From contig NZ_CP058601.1 of assembly GCF_013402815.2 (NCBI RefSeq), forward strand, positions 2,108,001 through 2,172,000: DNA of 64,000 bases, given 5' to 3'. The translations under genes were made by a program, and so were the position numbers. Under the pieces are notes generated by a model, which saw nothing but the letters and a program-made list of their open reading frames with translations, had not been told where the DNA came from and searched no databases. Shown here piece after piece: positions 48,313 through 62,007 of the stretch (position 1 is the first letter of the stretch; each line of letters starts with the position of its first letter). The stretch is from Natrinema halophilum (lineage in GTDB: Archaea; Halobacteriota; Halobacteria; Halobacteriales; Natrialbaceae).

Positions 48313-48453
48313 CGGTGGATCGTTCACGCGCGGAACGGATAGCCGTCACGATTCGAGCGCTCGGCTGGCCGTAACCGACCTACCACGGCGCCGCTCGGAT
48401 TGACGAATCGTAACACACAAGACACATAGTTATCGGTGACCTTTTGGTGGATA

Positions 48454-49386
48454 ATGAAGCGGTGGCTCCGTCAGCGCGTCGATGCGGCCTACGAGCGGCT
48501 GCTCTCGCGAGAAATTTCCGGCGCGCCGACCCACGTCGCGGTGATTCAGGACGGTAACCGACGGTATGCCCGAAAGCATGGTGGTACCGCCCACGAGGGC
48601 CACCGTGCCGGTGCCGAAACGACCGAACAAATACTCGAGTGGTGCCACGATATCGGCGTCGAGGAACTCACCCTGTATGCGTTCTCGACTGAGAACTTCG
48701 AGCGGCCCGACGAAGAAAACGAGGCACTGTTCGATTTGCTCTGTGAGAAGCTTCGAAAGTTCGCAGAGGCTGAACGCGTCCACGATAACGAAGTCCGTAT
48801 TCGGGCCCTCGGCGACGTCGAACAACTCCCGGACCGAGTTCGGGAAGCCGTCGCCTTCGCCGAGGAGCAAACCCGAGACTACGACCGGTTCGTCCTCAAC
48901 ATCGCACTGGCCTACGGCGGTCGCGCACAGTTACTCGAAGCCGTTCGCGGCGTCGCCGACAGCGTCGACGATGGCGACCTCGAGCCGGACGAGATCGACG
49001 TCGAGGACATCGAAGACCGACTGTACGACCGGCCCGTCCGCGACGTCGACCTGATCATCAGAACTGGCGGCGACGAGCGCACGTCGAACTTTCTCCCCTG
49101 GCACGCCAACGGCAACGAGGCAGCCGTGTTCTTCTGTACTCCGTACTGGCCTGAGTTCTCGAAAGCCGACTTCCTGCGCGGGATCCGCACGTACGAACAC
49201 CGGGAAGAATCCTGGCGACGGACTCGTGCTCGACGAGCGCTTGCACTTCTCGGCGCTATCAGCGAACCCGAACTCGTCGAAGCCCACTCGATCGTCGACC
49301 GATTCCGCGATTCCCTTCCATCAGCCGAACGACCCGATTCCAGGGACGTCGAGGCCAACGACTCGAGTGGCCGGGCGGCCGACTGA
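48454..49386 (+). CDS. uppS: cis-prenyltransferase, catalytic subunit type (undecaprenyl diphosphate synthase family)
   Basis: 310 residues from the ATG at 48454. The catalytic P-loop motif HVAVIQDGNRRYARKHGG (Asp33) and the C-terminal IIRTGGDERTSNFLPW and YWPEFSKADF are present. The C-terminal RxG motif, which E. coli UppS carries as RRFG near its end, is missing; here the region reads HREESWRRTRARRALALL. The second homologue at 51443-52048 has RRFG but lacks DGNRR. Together they suggest a heteromeric enzyme for the polyprenyl sugar carrier (inference). An acidic C-terminal extension of about 40 residues follows. Confidence 0.93.
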   Translation: MKRWLRQRVDAAYERLLSREISGAPTHVAVIQDGNRRYARKHGGTAHEGHRAGAETTEQILEWCHDIGVEELTLYAFSTENFERPDEENEALFDLLCEKLRKFAEAERVHDNEVRIRALGDVEQLPDRVREAVAFAEEQTRDYDRFVLNIALAYGGRAQLLEAVRGVADSVDDGDLEPDEIDVEDIEDRLYDRPVRDVDLIIRTGGDERTSNFLPWHANGNEAAVFFCTPYWPEFSKADFLRGIRTYEHREESWRRTRARRALALLGAISEPELVEAHSIVDRFRDSLPSAERPDSRDVEANDSSGRAAD

Positions 49387-49904: not shown

Positions 49905-51118
49905 CTACGACTCGCCGGAGGCAACATTCCCGTCACGGTGGACGGTACTCGGGTCTGTGCGCTGTTCTTTGGGACGTTCGTGGGGGTGTGGTGTCCCCGA
50001 CCAGTCGTGGTCGTCCCCCTCGAATCGTGCTCGAAAACGCTGCGCGTTTTCGGCATTGCGGGATCGAAGATCCCGCTTGCAGTCAGAAATCGACTGATTT
50101 CTGACGACATCCCGGAACTCTTTGATTTCCGAGGACACGGGCCGTGCCATCGGCCTGACGGCCTGTTCTGTGTGCCGCTTCAGGAACGTTTCTGACGCTG
50201 TGAGATCGGCGTGCCCCTCAAACCCACACGGACAGGTGAGCGTGTCCTGATGCCGTGTCGGTCGGTCTGTGCCGCCACACTGCGGGCACTCTTGGCTGGT
50301 CCACGCTTCCGACCGGACTTCGACCGAGATACCGTATTCCTCGGCGGTACAGACCAGTCGCTCGGTGAATTTCTTGAACGACCAGAAGTTGTGGGTCTTG
50401 GCGTTGGTCTCGACCGACCAGTGCGTGTCCAGCACGTCGGTCAGGCCACCGATATACACTGTGTCCACGCCCTCCTCGTACAGTCGTTCCAGCAGGTCAC
50501 GACACAACGCTTCTTGAGCGTGGTCGCGGCGACGGGTTCGCTTCCGATACAGTCGCCGGATACGCCCGCTGCTGTATTGGCCTTCTTCGAGTTTCGACTG
50601 CAACCGGGCGATTTCTCGCGTCGTCTCGCGGAACCGCTGGAACAACTCACGGCCCTCGTACAGGTATTGCTCGCCGGTCGTCGTGGTACAGGCGACGAGA
50701 TTGTTCGCACCAATGTCCAGAGCGGCCGTCTCTGCGGCCAGTGGAGTTGCCCGTGCATCGTCAGAAACAGTCACGGGTTGCGAAGCCCTGAACGTGCAAT
50801 CAGTCTCGTCGTCCCACAGGTCCAACCGGCCCTGTTTCTCGTAGTCGGGCCAAGTCGGGTCGCCAGCGATCTCCAAGCGGAGACGCCCGGTGTGGTCGTA
50901 TCGGTCTTTCAACTCACTCCCAACCAGTATCTCAAGTCGGGAGCGGTCGCCCCATTCGACGGTGTATGACGTGTTGCGAATGACGCCTTTGAGTTGTCGC
51001 CCATCGTCCTCGTTGCCACGGAGTTCCAGAGAGCGGCGGAAGCGTCCAACAGATCCCGTAGCAGTTGCTCTCCGGTATCGGAGAGCGGTCGCACGGTGAA
51101 CGTGTTGGTACGCTTCAT
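49905..51118 (-). pseudogene. tnpB: tnpB (RNA-guided endonuclease family), internally deleted and frameshifted
   Basis: The true start is [20 protein letters not shown] at 51118. After about 30 residues (SAALWNS) the frame changes, and the other frame continues with [20 protein letters not shown]. Compared with full haloarchaeal TnpB, roughly 90 codons are gone at this junction, so no complete protein is made. The rest is readable: [15 protein letters not shown] (first RuvC Asp), [19 protein letters not shown] (no Glu where TnpB usually has its catalytic Glu), SQECPQCGG...[15 protein letters not shown] (zinc ribbon, last Asp). A hairpin-rich insert of about 35 codons interrupts the C-terminal part ([19 protein letters not shown] onward). 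Confidence 0.85.
50032..50105 (-). repeat. array of three perfect hairpins inside the tnpB reading frame
   Basis: CGAAAACGC-TGC-GCGTTTTCG (50032-50052), GCGGGATC-GAA-GATCCCGC (50058-50076) and GTCAGAAATC-GACT-GATTTCTGAC (50082-50105). It is in frame with the tnpB C-terminal part and adds about 35 residues. Each arm pair is perfect. The design matches the arrays at 9954, 10993 and 38806. Confidence 0.85.
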
Positions 51119-51165
51119 ACCACAATCGTTATCACGTCTTCGCGTCAAATAAGTCTTGTGAGACA

Positions 51166-51309
51166 ATGCGACCAGCAATAGATATTTCGTATGGACTCCA
51201 CGGACGGGTGAAAGACTACGCCGAAGCAACCGACCAGTCGCTCGATGAAGCGTATATCGAGGTGCTAGAAACAGGACTCGACACGTTGGAGACTCCAGAC
51301 CAGCAGTAA
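51166..51309 (+). CDS. 47-residue protein, ribbon-helix-helix-like, divergent from tnpB
   Basis: ATG at 51166, stop TAA at 51309. The product begins MRPAIDISYGLHGRVKDYAE, a short strand, a helix and a second helix (SLDEAYIEVLETGLDTLE), like an Arc/CopG-type ribbon-helix-helix DNA-binding protein. An AAATAA TATA-like element lies just upstream. It lies in the 5' flank of tnpB with 47 bases between the divergent starts and is probably part of the element; a repressor of tnpB is possible. Too short for usual gene calling. Confidence 0.6.
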   Translation: MRPAIDISYGLHGRVKDYAEATDQSLDEAYIEVLETGLDTLETPDQQ

Positions 51310-51442: not shown

Positions 51443-52048
51443 CTATCGGCCGAACCGACGCGATCGATTGCAGTATTCTCGGACCGCTCGCAGGAAATCC
51501 CGTTTCCGGAAATCCCGCCAGTTCACGTCCGTGAAATACAGTTCCGAGTAGACCGACTGCCAGATCATGAAATCCGAAAGCCGTTCTGCGCCGGTCTTGA
51601 TAACGAGATCCGGCTCCGATTGGAACACGAGGTGGCTTTCGACGTGTTGATCGTCGATTTCGTCGGGTTCGAGATCACCGGCGTCGACCCGCTCGGCGAG
51701 CGTTCGAACGGCGCTGGTAAACTCGTGTTTCCCGCCGAGACCGATTCCGATCTGGATCGGCGCATCGGCCCGTGTCCTGTCTTCGGGTCCGCGAACGGCG
51801 ACCTCCCGGGGTGCGTCGAGCGTCTCGAGTTCGCGACGCAGAGCAGGCACCGCGGCCGCGTCGAGGACGCTCACGTAGACGGTTATCTGTGACGCGTACT
51901 CGACCGCCCACTCGAAGAACTTGGTGAGCGTTTCGTAGGCCCCCCGTTCCAGCAGGTCGCGTTCGGTGATCACGAGCGCAACGTGATCGGGCGGATCGGC
52001 CCCGTGGCGACGAATCCTGAGCCCGAGATACCGTTCGTAAACTCCCAC
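51443..52048 (-). CDS. cis-prenyltransferase homologue lacking the catalytic motif (regulatory/partner subunit type)
   Basis: 201 residues from a GTG at 52048; the frame is open further but upstream residues are atypical. It aligns with UppS along its length: DHVALVITERDLLERGAYET where the catalytic subunit has HVAVIQDGNRRYARK, so Asp, Asn and both Arg are lost; then VIKTGAERLSDFMIWQSVYS and LYFTDVNWRDFRKRDFLRAV. It ends NRSRRFGR, which keeps the RxG motif. This is the pattern of NgBR/Nus1-type partner subunits. It is divergent from the DUF92 gene. Confidence 0.82.
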   Translation of the reverse strand: MGVYERYLGLRIRRHGADPPDHVALVITERDLLERGAYETLTKFFEWAVEYASQITVYVSVLDAAAVPALRRELETLDAPREVAVRGPEDRTRADAPIQIGIGLGGKHEFTSAVRTLAERVDAGDLEPDEIDDQHVESHLVFQSEPDLVIKTGAERLSDFMIWQSVYSELYFTDVNWRDFRKRDFLRAVREYCNRSRRFGR

Positions 52049-52208
52049 GACAGTGATTTTCTCGGCCGATGTGATACGGGTTACGGGTCGTCCCCGCCCG
52101 GATTGGCGGAGACGAACTTCCCCGCTATCCCGGCCGCTGACGGCGATAAAACCGGCTCGAGCGGGTTCACGAACCTTGAAGTAATCGCCACAGAAAGGAA
52201 CCGGTATC

Positions 52209-53534
52209 GTGACAGCACCCGTTCGGCGAGCCGGCGTGTTTGCACTTATCTGTACGTTCTCGCTCGCCGTTCCGCTCTTCGGACCACGGGTGGGGGCCGC
52301 GCTCGCTGGCGGCATCCTGCTGGCCGCCTACGTCGTCACCGACGGTCCAATTTTCGAACTGCTTGCCTATCCGGGCGATTACGAGGATTCACGTCTGTAC
52401 GGTCTCATAACGTTCGTTCTCTCGGGGGTCGCACTCGGCCTTATGGCGACTGCAGCGTCGATGCCGGTCGCCGTTTTCGTCGGAACGCTACTGCTCGTCG
52501 GCTTCGGCAACCTCGGCGAGCAATTGGTCAGACTACGGACCGAACGATCCGTCGTTCGCGTCGGTGCGTTCTGTCTCGCTGGCACGGCGGCCGCCGTCGT
52601 CGGGCAGACCATTTCGCACTCGCTTGCCAGCAACGTCGTCGCGTCGATAATGCCGAACGTCATCTTTCTCGCCGCGAGCGGGGCATTTCTCGCCGCGCTC
52701 CTCCGGGACGTTTTGTTGCGCTCCGACGATCCGATCGTCGTCCTCTCAGTTGGGCTCCTCCTCTGGCTGCTCGCCGAACTCGAACCGTCGATCGGCGAGT
52801 GGGAGATACTCGTTGCGCTCGCCGTCACTATCGCCCTCGGGTACGCGTCCTACCACCTCGAGACGGCATCCATCGCGGGTATGCTCACCGGGATCCTACT
52901 CGGCCTGCTGACGATCGTGCTGGGTGACTACCGCTGGTTCGCCGTCCTTATCTCGTTTTTCGCAATCGGTGGCCTCTCGACGAAGTTCCGGTACGAGCGA
53001 AAAGAAGCCCTCGGTGTCGCCGAAGACAACAACGGTGCACGCGGCAGCGGAAACGTCCTCGGCAACGCCGCCGTCGCCCTCGTTGCGGTGTTGGGGTATG
53101 CAGCCAGCGACGCTGGCTTTCTCCCCTGGGATCCCGTCCTCCTCCTGTTTGCCTTTGCCGGTTCCATTGCGACTGCGATGAGCGATACCCTCTCGAGCGA
53201 AATCGGCAGCGTCTTCGAGACGCCGCGACTGATCACTACTCTCGAGCCGGTCGAACCCGGCACGGACGGGGGCGTCACGTGGCAAGGCGAACTCGCGGGT
53301 ATCGCTGGTGCGGCGGTCGTCGCGGGTATCGCCTACGGGCTGTTCCCCGACGTTGGGAGCACCGGTGTGGCGATCATCGTCGCCGCCGGCATCGTCGGAA
53401 TGACCGTGGATAGCCTGCTGGGGGCGACGCTCGAAGGGACCATGCTGGGTAATCAGGGCGTCAACTTCCTCGCGACGTTGTCCGGTGCGCTCATCAGTGC
53501 CGTACTGGTGCTTACGTTCCCCGTCATCGCGTGA
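52209..53534 (+). CDS. DUF92 family membrane protein
   Basis: 441 residues from a GTG at 52209, with about ten to twelve transmembrane segments. The C-terminal half (from about 230) holds the family core FFAIGGLSTKFRYERKEALG, then GNAAVALVAVLGYAAS, SIATAMSDTLSSEIGSVF and GALISAVLV. DUF92 includes plant VTE6, a phytyl-phosphate kinase, so a polyprenyl or phytyl phosphate kinase role is possible. The location beside a cis-prenyltransferase homologue supports a lipid-carrier role (inference). The N-terminal half is a long membrane extension. Confidence 0.87.
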   Translation: MTAPVRRAGVFALICTFSLAVPLFGPRVGAALAGGILLAAYVVTDGPIFELLAYPGDYEDSRLYGLITFVLSGVALGLMATAASMPVAVFVGTLLLVGFGNLGEQLVRLRTERSVVRVGAFCLAGTAAAVVGQTISHSLASNVVASIMPNVIFLAASGAFLAALLRDVLLRSDDPIVVLSVGLLLWLLAELEPSIGEWEILVALAVTIALGYASYHLETASIAGMLTGILLGLLTIVLGDYRWFAVLISFFAIGGLSTKFRYERKEALGVAEDNNGARGSGNVLGNAAVALVAVLGYAASDAGFLPWDPVLLLFAFAGSIATAMSDTLSSEIGSVFETPRLITTLEPVEPGTDGGVTWQGELAGIAGAAVVAGIAYGLFPDVGSTGVAIIVAAGIVGMTVDSLLGATLEGTMLGNQGVNFLATLSGALISAVLVLTFPVIA

Positions 53535-57200: not shown

Positions 57201-57482
57201 ATGCGCCGTACCGAACTCGGACTCTGGATCGGCGTCGCCGTCGTCCTCGCCAGCTTCGCAATTCCGTGGTTCCTGTGGGGATCCGCGACCGTCGTCGCCG
57301 GGCTACCGATGTGGCTCTGGTGGCACGTCGGCTGGATGGGACTGGCGTCGATCGTATTCTGGGTGTTCACCAGACGCGCGTGGGGTATCGGTATCGAACC
57401 AGGCGGTCGGAACGCGAGCGAAGCAGCCCGCGGAAGGACCGACGCCGCTCGAGGGTCGGATGCCGGGGGTGAGTCGCCGTGA
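57201..57482 (+). CDS. DUF3311 small membrane subunit
   Basis: 93 residues with two transmembrane segments (LGLWIGVAVVLASFAIPWFL; LWWHVGWMGLASIVFWVF) and a Ser/Ala/Arg-rich tail. DUF3311 genes nearly always precede a sodium:solute symporter gene, as here, with a 4-base overlap (57479-57482). It is likely an accessory part of that transporter. Confidence 0.88.
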   Translation: MRRTELGLWIGVAVVLASFAIPWFLWGSATVVAGLPMWLWWHVGWMGLASIVFWVFTRRAWGIGIEPGGRNASEAARGRTDAARGSDAGGESP

Positions 57483-58957
57483 ACGCGGTTACGCTGCAAC
57501 TCGCCATCATCGTGGGCTACCTCCTGATTGCGCTCGCGGTCGGGCTGGTCGCCTACCGGCTGACCGAGCGGACCGCAGAGGACTTCTACCTCGCGAGCCG
57601 AACGCTCGGGACCGTCGTCCTGCTCTTTACGACCTTCGCGACGTTACTGTCCGCGTTCACGTTCTTCGCCGGGCCGAACATCGCGTACGCGAACGGACCC
57701 GAGTGGGTTCTGGTCATGGGGCTGATGGACGGTATCATCTTCGCCGTCCTCTGGTACGTGATCGGCTACAAGCAGTGGCTGCTCGGCCAGCAGTATGGCT
57801 ACGTGACTCTCGGCGAGATGCTCGGCGACCGCTTCGGTTCGCGGTGGCTCCGCGGCCTCGTCGCCGGTGTGAGCCTGCTGTGGCTATTCCCGTACGTCAT
57901 GCTCCAGCAAGTCGGCGCAGGGACCGCACTCGAGGCGCTCACCGAAGGAACGGTCTCGTACGCCGCCGGTGCCGGGCTGATCACGGCGTTCATGATCCTC
58001 TACGTCGTCGCCGCCGGGATGCGGGGGATCGCCTGGACCGATACGATCCAGGGAGCGTTCATGCTGATTACGACCTGGGCCGCGCTGCTGTGGGTTCTCG
58101 CGGCCGTGGGCGGGCCCGGTGCTGCGACGGAAGCGCTCGCGTCGAACCCCGACACTGCCGGCTTCCTCTCGCTCGGGGGCGGTGTCTACTCGGTCCCGTG
58201 GATCCTCTCGACGGCGATCACGATCGGCTTCGGCGTCGCGATGTTTCCACAGGTCAACCAGCGCTTTTTCGCGGCTGGGTCGCGGCGGGTCCTCCAGCGC
58301 TCGTTCGCGCTCTGGCCGATCCTTTGCGTGTTGCTATTCGTACCTTCGTTCATGCTCGGCGCGTGGGCCGCCGGTCTCGGGGTCGCGGTGCCGGACGGCG
58401 CGAACGTTCTCCCCATCGTCCTCGCGGAGTACACGCCGCTCTGGTTCGCAGCACTCATCATCGCCGGCGCGATGGCGGCGATGATGTCCTCGTCCGATTC
58501 GATGCTCCTCTCCGGTTCGTCGTACTTCACGCGGGACCTCTACCGCCCGTTCGTCGACCGAACCCTCTCCGATCGCCGCGAGGATCTGCTCGCCCGCGGC
58601 GGAGTCGTGATCTTTGCAACAGCTGCCTTCGTCGCCAGCCTGTTCCAGCCCGCGACGCTGTTCGAGATCGGTGAGGCCGCCTTCAGCGGCTTCGCTCAGC
58701 TCGCGCTGCCCGTCCTGCTCGCGCTCTACTGGCGACGGACGACGCGAGCCGGCATCACTGCCGGCATTCTATCGAGCCAAGCGTTCTACATGATGAGCCT
58801 CTTCCTCGCCATCGTTCCCGGTTCCTACGCGGGCTGGTCGGCCGGTCTCGTCGGAATGGGACTCAGTCTGCTCGTCACCGCCGCCGTCTCCCTGGTCACG
58901 ACGCCGGCCGCCGCCGAGCGCCGCGCGATCTACTTCGATAAGCTCGGAGCGGACTGA
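57479..58957 (+). CDS. sodium:solute symporter (SSS family)
   Basis: 492 residues from a GTG at 57479, thirteen transmembrane segments. Family features: TAEDFYLASRTLGT, FTFFAGPNIAYANGPEW near the start, AFMLITTWAALLWVL and MAAMMSSSDSMLLSGSSYFT (sodium-site region). Transporters of this DUF3311-linked type carry small acids such as pantothenate or acetate; the substrate is not clear. Translationally coupled to the DUF3311 gene. Confidence 0.92.
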   Translation: MNAVTLQLAIIVGYLLIALAVGLVAYRLTERTAEDFYLASRTLGTVVLLFTTFATLLSAFTFFAGPNIAYANGPEWVLVMGLMDGIIFAVLWYVIGYKQWLLGQQYGYVTLGEMLGDRFGSRWLRGLVAGVSLLWLFPYVMLQQVGAGTALEALTEGTVSYAAGAGLITAFMILYVVAAGMRGIAWTDTIQGAFMLITTWAALLWVLAAVGGPGAATEALASNPDTAGFLSLGGGVYSVPWILSTAITIGFGVAMFPQVNQRFFAAGSRRVLQRSFALWPILCVLLFVPSFMLGAWAAGLGVAVPDGANVLPIVLAEYTPLWFAALIIAGAMAAMMSSSDSMLLSGSSYFTRDLYRPFVDRTLSDRREDLLARGGVVIFATAAFVASLFQPATLFEIGEAAFSGFAQLALPVLLALYWRRTTRAGITAGILSSQAFYMMSLFLAIVPGSYAGWSAGLVGMGLSLLVTAAVSLVTTPAAAERRAIYFDKLGAD

Positions 58958-59764: not shown

Positions 59765-60685
59765 TCAGAGAAGCCCCAGCGCGCGTCCGAGAAAGTAGCC
59801 GCTCGCGGCGACGAACCAGCCGGTAAAAACGACTATCGCGAGTCCGAACGCCGCTTTTGGCGTCGGTCGCCCTCGCTTGAGATCCCTGAACGCGTGGTTG
59901 CGAAGGTTGTGGGTCCCGAATACGTCGACGAACAGCCAGTAGCCGTCGCCGTCGATGAGCGGATTGAAGACGAACAGCAGCCGAAACAGCTGGACGAGGA
60001 TTAGCGAGCCGAGGATGGCGGAGTCGGGAGAGAGCGTCAGCGCTATCGCAAGGCCGAGCGTGACGACGATATCAACGATCGGTCCGGCGAGGCTAATCCA
60101 AATGCGAACGTTTCGCGGACACTGCCAGGCGTCCCTGGTTCGAGTTATCACTGCCGGAATGATGCCGTTCAGTCGCCCGATCGTGATCGACGGTTCGAAA
60201 TAGGGCCGGCTGGCGGCGTAGTGGCCGAACTCGTGGAGAAGTGTCGCTCCGATGAAAAACGGCACGATGACGAACGTATTCCCGATCGAACCCGGTGGAC
60301 TCCAGATCGGTCCCCAGTTGGCGACCACCAGCGCGCAGAGTGCGAGCGTCATCCCTGCAGCCACTACGAGTCGCGGCCACAGACGGATATCCCCCGGAGT
60401 CTCGACCCGTCGTATTTCGCCTCCCGGCTCGAGGTATCCGCCTTCGGCCAGCAGGTCGACCGCCTCCAGAACCTTCGGGTCGACTGACGATGGCTCGCTC
60501 TCACCGACGGCGAGTTTGCGCAACGGCTCCTGAAACGCCGGATCGATGCGCTTGTATTCGCCGTCGTCGTTTCGGATCCAGATCGTCCCGTCGGTTTCGC
60601 CCCAGGTATACCCGAAATTTCGGCGTATTTCGGTCCCGTCCCGTTCCGAATCGTCATCGGAGATTGCATCGCTGGAAACCGTCAT
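59765..60685 (-). CDS. M50 (site-2-type) metalloprotease with a PqqD-like N-terminal domain
   Basis: 306 residues. N-terminal about 25-95 (GTIWIRNDDGEYKRIDPAFQ, VDPKVLEAVDLLAEGGYLEP) has the length and pattern of a PqqD-like RiPP recognition domain. Transmembrane segments from 105 on. Zinc site HEFGH at 151-155 and NPLIDGDGYW at 241-250 (Asp245 likely ligand). Site-2-type proteases cut within the membrane. Its start overlaps the stop of the ATP-grasp gene by 4 bases (60682-60685), so the two are cotranscribed. Likely processing or export of the small peptide at 61867 (inference). Confidence 0.82.
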   Translation of the reverse strand: MTVSSDAISDDDSERDGTEIRRNFGYTWGETDGTIWIRNDDGEYKRIDPAFQEPLRKLAVGESEPSSVDPKVLEAVDLLAEGGYLEPGGEIRRVETPGDIRLWPRLVVAAGMTLALCALVVANWGPIWSPPGSIGNTFVIVPFFIGATLLHEFGHYAASRPYFEPSITIGRLNGIIPAVITRTRDAWQCPRNVRIWISLAGPIVDIVVTLGLAIALTLSPDSAILGSLILVQLFRLLFVFNPLIDGDGYWLFVDVFGTHNLRNHAFRDLKRGRPTPKAAFGLAIVVFTGWFVAASGYFLGRALGLL

Positions 60686-61617
60686 GGGTCGGCGAGAAAC
60701 GCAGCGAGTTCGTCGGCGACACGCGTACCCGCGAGTTCATCGAACGTCGCGAACATCGGCGACGGGTTCGCCTCGAGAACGACGAAGCGGTCGGAGCCGT
60801 CGATGACGTCGACGCCCGTAAACGGGAGTTCGAGTTGCGTGGCTGCACGGCACGCTGCTCGTTCGATTTCGGGATCGAGAGAGTCGAGTGGAATCCGTTC
60901 GACGTCGTGTTCGACGCTGCGATAATCGAGCGCGTCCGAGACGATGCGGGCGGCGGCGACTGCCTCTCCGTCGACGACGAACACGCGAACGTCGTCCCCG
61001 TCGATCCGCTCTTGAAACTGTACCGGGGAGTTTGCGAGCCGAGTGAGGCGTTCGTCTTCGAGATCATCCTTCTCGAGGCGGTGTGCGTGGCCGCCACCGG
61101 TGACGGGTTTGTAGATGACGTCCTCGACGCGGTTTGCGAACGTCCGTACCTCGTCCGGATCGTTCGTCGAGCACGTCTCCGGTACCGGAACCCCGGCCGC
61201 AGAGAGCGTCGAGAGCTGCCAGGGTTTCAGATCGTGAATACTCATCGCCTCGGGCGGATTTATTACCCGTACACCTTCGTCCTGAAGACGCTTGACTGCA
61301 GATAGAAGGAGACCCCGGTATTCGCGTATCTGATTGATCACTGACAGCGGGCGCTCATCTAACTCGGACTCGAACTCCGGATAGCGGGCATCGAAGCCGA
61401 GCTGTCGCAAGTAAATCGTGTGATATTCCGCCGGGATCTCTTCGGTGTCGGCTACCGAAACGCTCGTTTGGTCTCCGACGTGTCGAACCGTCGCCGGCAC
61501 GTCGCCGGGCCAAGACGATGCGTCCCACAGCGCCGTTTCGACCCCCCGTTTCTCGAGTTCTCGTGTCACCGCTTTCACCTGCAGGTCCGCTTCTGGACCG
61601 ATTAACAGTACACCCAT
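60682..61617 (-). CDS. ATP-grasp ligase (RimK/graspetide-type)
   Basis: 311 residues. N-terminal preATP-grasp fold (VLLIGPEADLQVKAVTRELE). ATP-grasp core: DLKPWQLSTLSAAGVPVPET with Lys131, VIYKPVTGGGHAHRLE (Lys170, glycine loop), RIDGDDVRVFVVDG and the metal-site end FTGVDVIDG/VLEANPSPM with Asp270, Glu282 and Asn284. This is the family that includes RimK, tubulin-like ligases and MvdC/MvdD, which form ester or amide bonds between side chains in graspetides. It is next to a short precursor gene and a PqqD-like/M50 protein. Confidence 0.87.
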   Translation of the reverse strand: MGVLLIGPEADLQVKAVTRELEKRGVETALWDASSWPGDVPATVRHVGDQTSVSVADTEEIPAEYHTIYLRQLGFDARYPEFESELDERPLSVINQIREYRGLLLSAVKRLQDEGVRVINPPEAMSIHDLKPWQLSTLSAAGVPVPETCSTNDPDEVRTFANRVEDVIYKPVTGGGHAHRLEKDDLEDERLTRLANSPVQFQERIDGDDVRVFVVDGEAVAAARIVSDALDYRSVEHDVERIPLDSLDPEIERAACRAATQLELPFTGVDVIDGSDRFVVLEANPSPMFATFDELAGTRVADELAAFLADP

Positions 61618-61866
61618 ACGCCGAATTATTTAGCTACTATACCAATAACACTATTGAAGTTAGATTGCGTATTTTACGTATCGATGTAGATATATAACCG
61701 TCCTTTTGAACCCGAAGAGGTTCACGATCCAATCCGTGACCGGAATTGGGCCCGTTACCGAGCCGCAGCCGTGTGTCAATGTCATCTGGTAACAGCCATC
61801 AATAATTGCGTGAACTTGCATGATTTAGAAAGTTTAATAGTGAGTTGTCTTCAACCAGCAATTTGC
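61618..61866. promoter_or_regulatory. divergent promoter region of the RiPP locus
   Basis: An AT-rich 249-base gap between the ATP-grasp start (61617, minus) and the precursor start (61867, plus). TATA GTTTAATAG (61832-61840) is 27 bases before the precursor ATG. Hairpins GAACC-CGAAGA-GGTTC (61708-61723) and TCACG-loop-CGTGA (61722-61739) could be regulatory. A TATATA stretch near 61690 could serve the minus-strand operon. Confidence 0.6.
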
Positions 61867-62007
61867 ATGACAGCAGAAAATAACGACGGTGTGCACTTCG
61901 TCGAAGACCTCGAAGAACGATCGAACGCCTCTCCGATGGTTACGACACTGGCAATCGGTGAGGAAGGTGGAGTCACGACGCTGGCCTGTGCGGAAACGGG
62001 CTGCTAG
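61867..62007 (+). CDS. RiPP precursor peptide candidate (graspetide-like)
   Basis: 46 residues, ATG at 61867, stop TAG. Leader MTAENNDGVHFVEDLEERSN (1-20), then ASPM and a 22-residue core made of two 11-residue repeats: VTTLAIGEEGG (25-35) and VTTLACAETGC (36-46). Thr and Glu residues sit five apart in both repeats (Thr27-Glu32, Thr38-Glu43), as expected for side-chain ester links made by ATP-grasp ligases. Two Cys are at 41 and 46. A TATA box lies 27 bases upstream; a terminator-like hairpin follows. An upstream in-frame extension to 61771 is unlikely. Confidence 0.78.
   Translation: MTAENNDGVHFVEDLEERSNASPMVTTLAIGEEGGVTTLACAETGC

Follow-up and report, generated by a model that had tools for sequence, protein, structure and literature searches.

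Which peptide does a membrane protease with its own predicted leader-docking domain serve in a haloarchaeon, and which step of that peptide's maturation might it carry out? The question is raised by an open reading frame (ORF) at 59765–60685 in a 64,000-nucleotide stretch of Natrinema halophilum DNA (contig NZ_CP058601.1, positions 2,108,001 to 2,172,000; order Halobacteriales), the whole of which is referred to here as the window. An earlier interpretation made without database searches (the sequence-only reading) placed this ORF exactly, leaving its strand (minus) unstated, and took the product for a PqqD-like domain fused to an M50 site-2 protease; its entry on the protease named no substrate gene. 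Our candidate substrate is a 46-amino acid (aa) peptide encoded at 61867–62007, and we consider it quite probable, taking both parts together, that the locus is a minimal three-gene graspetide cluster (precursor, ligase, protease) and that the protease is its leader-removing step, cutting at the membrane. The docking domain is described below as a RiPP recognition element (RRE), RiPPs being ribosomally synthesized and post-translationally modified peptides. The features concerned are as follows.

59765–60685, minus strand: RRE (PqqD-like)–M50 site-2 protease, 306 aa (ORF, 20 aligned homologues, NCBIfam daptide_HExxH).
60401–60628, minus strand: predicted N-terminal RRE-type winged-helix domain, residues 20–95 (AlphaFold2, VIA-align, hhalign to PqqD).
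60221–60235, minus strand: HEFGH zinc-protease motif, residues 151–155 (ORF and homologue alignment).
59936–59965, minus strand: NPLIDGDGYW site-2 protease motif, residues 241–250 (ORF and homologue alignment).
60682–61617, minus strand: PsnB-like ATP-grasp ligase (graspetide synthetase), 311 aa (phmmer, family profile, catalytic residues).
61867–62007, plus strand: candidate precursor peptide, 46 aa, MTAENNDGVHFVEDLEERSNASPMVTTLAIGEEGGVTTLACAETGC (ORF, leader pattern, codon-position differences).
61894–61917, plus strand: conserved leader motif HFVEDLEE, precursor residues 10–17, putative docking site (alignment of 20 precursors).
61942–61965, plus strand: core motif TTLAIGEE (TTxxxxEE), precursor residues 26–33 (sequence; pattern also in loci L003, L034, L035, and L075).
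61975–61998, plus strand: second core repeat TTLACAET, precursor residues 37–44 (read directly from the sequence).

The protease portion (residues 100–306) carries both site-2 protease motifs at the positions given by the sequence-only reading. A hydrophobic stretch at residues 135–148 runs into HEFGH, an HExxH motif, and the second motif, of NPxxDG type (NPLIDGDG, 241–248), lies behind a hydrophobic stretch at 204–237; together with those at 108–121 and 283–306, the family-averaged hydropathy is consistent with a multi-pass membrane protein. Across 20 aligned haloarchaeal homologues, with identities down to 28%, residues H151, E152, H155, N241, P242, G246, D247, and G248 are invariant, which argues that the motifs are not there by chance. 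Because the window protease does not reach the gathering score of Pfam Peptidase_M50 (15.3 versus 27.2 bits), it is classed by its motifs rather than by that score, as a divergent RiPP-type relative; all 20 members match the Pfam model at E ≤ 10 (best, 7.9e-6). The NCBIfam daptide metalloprotease model (daptide_HExxH) matches the window protease over residues 108–271 with E 1.5e-13, and all 20 homologues match it below its cut-off, while the NCBIfam model of the YydH/LiaK epipeptide protease matches the window protease with E 5e-6 and 15 of the 20 homologues. A full-length AlphaFold2 model, built on three sequences, has a predicted local distance difference test score (pLDDT) below 50 in the protease half, which supports no claim.

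The N-terminal domain (residues 20–95) is present in every homologue aligned. For residues 18–99, again with three sequences, AlphaFold2 predicts a confident winged helix (mean pLDDT 89.7) in which three strands (24–31, 34–38, and 44–47) are followed by helices (49–60 and 70–81), as in the winged helix of an RRE. The top VIA-align match of this domain is the lasso-peptide B1 leader-binding protein 6jx3 (Z 6.4, root-mean-square deviation 2.3, 66 residues), which also ranks first for the full-length model (Z 6.6); TbiB1, CteB, and the PbtF RRE appear within the first twelve rows, and the list includes other winged helices, such as GdmN (Z 5.3) and NO66 (Z 3.8). These Z values are middling, and the support lies in the run of independent RREs and in the context. 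In a profile alignment (hhalign) to PqqD proteins from other haloarchaea, the domain scored 24.9 over 54 columns, and the highest of 60 column shuffles reached 14.8. The match to another haloarchaeal PqqD group was weaker, its score of 19.8 being reached by one of 40 shuffles. Pfam assigns no domain to the N-terminus of any member, and a genome scan with Pfam PqqD did not pick up the window protease gene. The predicted fold thus bears out "PqqD-like", the label given to residues 25–95 by the sequence-only reading, as a fold class, and the domain is RRE-type rather than a member of Pfam PqqD. Its fold and context together suggest a putative role in leader docking.

The ATP-grasp gene lies 5′ of the protease gene on the same strand, and the ligase stop and protease start overlap by four bases (ATGA), so the two genes are probably co-transcribed and translationally coupled. 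By phmmer, the window ligase matches the PsnB structure 7drm over nearly its whole length (E 2e-49; next solved structure, 4e-12); the record for 7drm names only an ATP-grasp domain-containing protein, which we take to be PsnB, the plesiocin macrocyclase. A profile of the ligase family finds PsnB with E 1.3e-73, other graspetide ligases with 1.2e-26 and weaker, and glutamate ligases with about 2e-17, and the catalytic residues D270, E282, and N284 are invariant in the family, in line with a ligase of the graspetide clade. By these scores, PsnB is by a wide margin the solved enzyme nearest to the family. It is not filed under the graspetide ligase subfamily TIGR04187 (SAV_5884), whose cut-off is missed (106.8 versus 350 bits). 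As a separate observation, loci L040, L043, and L044 have tandem ATP-grasp ligases, one of each pair carrying VVQPVN instead of VYKPV in the ATP-binding strand; that ligase is possibly a degenerate partner subunit.

A search of 293 genomes from the order found 18 RRE-M50 genes, spread over 16 of these genomes; all 18 adjoin a ligase of this family, which occurs 27 times, 21 of them at RRE-M50 loci. The ATP-grasp and M50 families are the only large gene families common to all 21 haloarchaeal loci. No transporter is common to them, the sodium:solute symporter at 57479–58957 being found at three only, so the view that the locus lacks a transporter is correct in substance. Seven Natrialbaceae loci also have a neighbouring gene for an HFX_2341-family regulator, which reads as a reflection of chromosomal position, not function. 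The cassette is patchily held, as it is missing from fifteen sampled genomes of the window's own genus, and relatives are plasmid-borne in Halocatena and Halorussus. A phylum-wide search beyond haloarchaea returned only two partial matches, to the protease part. A second M50 gene near genome position 3181402, accompanied by an ATP-grasp gene, was considered as a paralogous cluster and rejected, since it encodes a CBS-domain M50 protein with a LysX/RimK-like ligase and is unrelated. In bacteria, an M50 protease of 398 aa on a Hymenobacter plasmid (L079:5626–6822), in an unannotated setting, has an N-terminal segment and may thus be another case of a docking domain joined to a protease.

A candidate substrate is present at all 21 loci, positioned upstream, downstream, or divergently; in the window, its ORF is divergent from the ligase gene on the opposite strand. 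These precursors are 30–49 aa long with one or two repeats, and that of the window is short, with a conserved leader and a Thr/Glu core in which TTLAIGEE fits TTxxxxEE, the core arrangement of plesiocin. This core pattern occurs in five loci only (the window, L003, L034, L035, and L075). A pattern based on the leader found one ORF within 1.3 kb of each of 19 loci (19/19). It had no match in 157 kb of flanks, and the precursor is its sole match in the window. At the Halocatena salina locus (L075), which was left out of building the pattern, it finds MTEDVHFIEELEERENATPIGVTTMAMGEEVGDLSLPLI directly before the ligase gene. Pairwise differences in the conserved leader block are distributed as 20/0/115 over the three codon positions, which indicates that the block is under selection as coding sequence. 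A search with the window precursor against solved structures found nothing. A minus-strand ORF at 61660–61821, just upstream of the ligase gene, was also tried as the precursor and rejected, being without a family match or conserved motif where the plus-strand ORF is conserved.

Related proteases have a place in other RiPP pathways. Daptides were discovered through just such a fusion of an RRE and an intramembrane site-2 protease, and their leader is reportedly removed by MpaP (PMC10036551); M50 proteases also act on epipeptides and on peptides with 3-thia-amino acids (EpeP, TglG, and TmoG; PMC10885120). The sequence-only reading, which gave membrane proteins and pheromones as the substrates of known site-2 proteases, is therefore incomplete on this point. 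MpaP/DapP (NF041824) likewise combines an N-terminal RRE and an M50 protease in one protein, encoded in a RiPP cluster; its model matches all 20 haloarchaeal members over the protease part, and the N-terminal domains match above shuffles. However, the window protease scores 50.7 bits against a family cut-off of 300, is 306 aa long where MpaP of Streptomyces has 543–546, and stands beside an ATP-grasp ligase, whereas mpaB, mpaC, mpaD, and mpaM, by comparison with a true daptide locus, are not at the haloarchaeal loci. In the plesiocin system (group 2 graspetides), the PsnB macrocyclase resembles the window ligase and the TTxxxxEE core is shared, but the haloarchaeal clusters have an RRE-M50 protease and an archaeal host, and their short precursors with one or two repeats are unlike the tetravalent plesiocin (PMC12291112). 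EpeP/YydH (LiaK family, NF058609), also an M50 protease of the membrane, matures a RiPP and may help to release it (PMC10885120); its model is shorter (246 positions) and matches the protease part only, and its modifying enzyme is an epimerase rather than an ATP-grasp ligase. Lasso-peptide B1, the source of the best structural match 6jx3, is a leader-binding RRE that works with a leader-cutting protease, B2. That protease is soluble and has a transglutaminase fold, and so differs from an intramembrane metalloprotease.

We infer the following order of steps at the haloarchaeal loci. The PsnB-like enzyme would bind the N-terminal leader of the precursor, which bears HFVEDLEE, and would join the hydroxyls of Thr residues in the core to the carboxylates of Glu residues there (in TTLAIGEE and TTLACAET), giving hairpin-like ester rings. 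The cross-linked precursor would then pass to the RRE of the protease, which may hold that same leader on the cytoplasmic side of the membrane. The leader–core boundary, probably near a conserved E-R-x-N/S segment, would be placed in the intramembrane HEFGH/NPLIDGDG active site, and the cut would release the ring peptide either at the membrane or across it. The reading as a minimal graspetide cluster is favoured because all 21 loci carry the ATP-grasp gene and a precursor and share no transporter. Leader removal by the protease is supported by the RRE-type fold with PqqD similarity above shuffles, the invariant protease residues, the adjacency of 18/18 RRE-M50 genes to the ligase family closest to PsnB, the TTxxxxEE cores of five loci, the precursor-like ORFs with their coding-like leader block and the hit at the held-out locus, and the precedent of an RRE-dependent site-2 protease that removes daptide leaders (PMC10036551). 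The earlier suggestion that recognition and cutting are coupled in one membrane protein likewise gains support from the predicted fold, the intact M50 motifs, and the leader-bearing precursor at every locus.

Several points weigh against this assignment. Foldseek with the isolated domain gave noise-level matches only, none of them significant, for which reason the RRE assignment, though good, leaves some doubt; Pfam PqqD (PF05402) detects none of the 20 members at E ≤ 10, which leaves the sequence-only label without support at the level of family membership (the same Pfam model finds no PqqD in daptide MpaP either). Ligase and protease genes are not invariably neighbours: six related ATP-grasp genes have no adjoining RRE-M50 gene (three of the six belong to the Halorussus genus group; two have their own precursor). 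In Halorussus, several cores have no Asp or Glu, for example ...TNTVVSTPITWFGG, ...ENTYYTGGCIAYC, and ...KNTRVTCPLSC, and links there cannot be simple core Thr–Glu esters. Two sets of loci may be recorded here. At L124, L125, and L126, ATP-grasp genes of the same family have no protease beside them, two having a precursor; two of these genomes have an RRE-M50 gene at another locus, which could act in trans. The Halorussus-type loci L036, L037, L041, and L124 combine the shared leader and cores without Asp or Glu with an intact adjoining PsnB-like ligase.

The alternative that survives best extends leader removal and is compatible with it: the protease would both cut the precursor and let the product out, serving as the exit step with no need of a transporter, as the sequence-only reading suggested. 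Since the 21 loci have no transporter in common and EpeP is thought to both cut and export (PMC10885120), the product could plausibly leave through the protease or beside it. Yet a transporter absent from the locus may still be encoded elsewhere in the genome, and a small site-2 protease appears to have no evident export channel; on balance, we regard an exit step as possible but rather doubtful. An ATP-grasp enzyme that adds an amino acid or other group to the peptide C-terminus, with the M50 protease releasing the C-terminal modified piece, would suit the Halorussus cores without acid residues, and there are M50 proteases, TglG and TmoG, that release modified residues from the C-terminus (PMC10885120). 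We hold it to be improbable, as RimK-type amino-acid ligases (E about 2e-17) match the ligase family far less well than PsnB does (E 1.3e-73) and the window core has the plesiocin pattern. It is equally a long shot that in haloarchaea a single RRE–site-2 protease binds, cuts, and releases graspetides without a transporter and that the Halorussus branch applies this protease to peptides whose links are not drawn from core Asp or Glu, its PsnB-type ligase having changed its chemistry. An ordinary regulated-proteolysis or housekeeping site-2 protease lying near a peptide gene by chance is very improbable: M50 proteases are common and this genome has the CBS-domain M50 elsewhere, but the unbroken co-occurrence of RRE-M50 and ligase genes contradicts it, as do the predicted leader-binding fold and the match of all members to the daptide protease model.

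Elsewhere in the window, a TnpB-like transposon gene (49905–51229, minus strand) has its N-terminal part in a different frame from the rest and looks frameshifted. Two nearby ORFs resemble cis-prenyltransferases (48436–49386, plus strand; 51443–52315, minus strand), the second clearly divergent, and a multi-pass membrane protein is encoded beside them at 52209–53534.

In its main text, a classification of 43 graspetide groups lists groups with proteases or peptidase-transporters and describes no haloarchaeal group and no RRE-M50 protein; its groups 26, 30, 32, and 40, which have proteases, may include the present cluster (PMC13097080). M50 is not mentioned in a large graspetide survey (PMC8939145), nor are graspetides in a survey of archaeal RiPPs (PMC12144867). 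The RRE-M50 fusion and the ligase class are each known, and their union in archaea, with a PsnB-like ligase, appears to be new within the literature searched. For many graspetides, the enzyme that cuts off the leader is reported as not known (PMC8939145), and the same is said of the graspimiditides (PMC12291112). As far as the searched literature goes, this would be the first plesiocin-type cluster described from haloarchaea, and with a protease that carries its own predicted leader-docking domain and whose gene overlaps that of the ligase, the leader-removal step could be rebuilt with three small genes.
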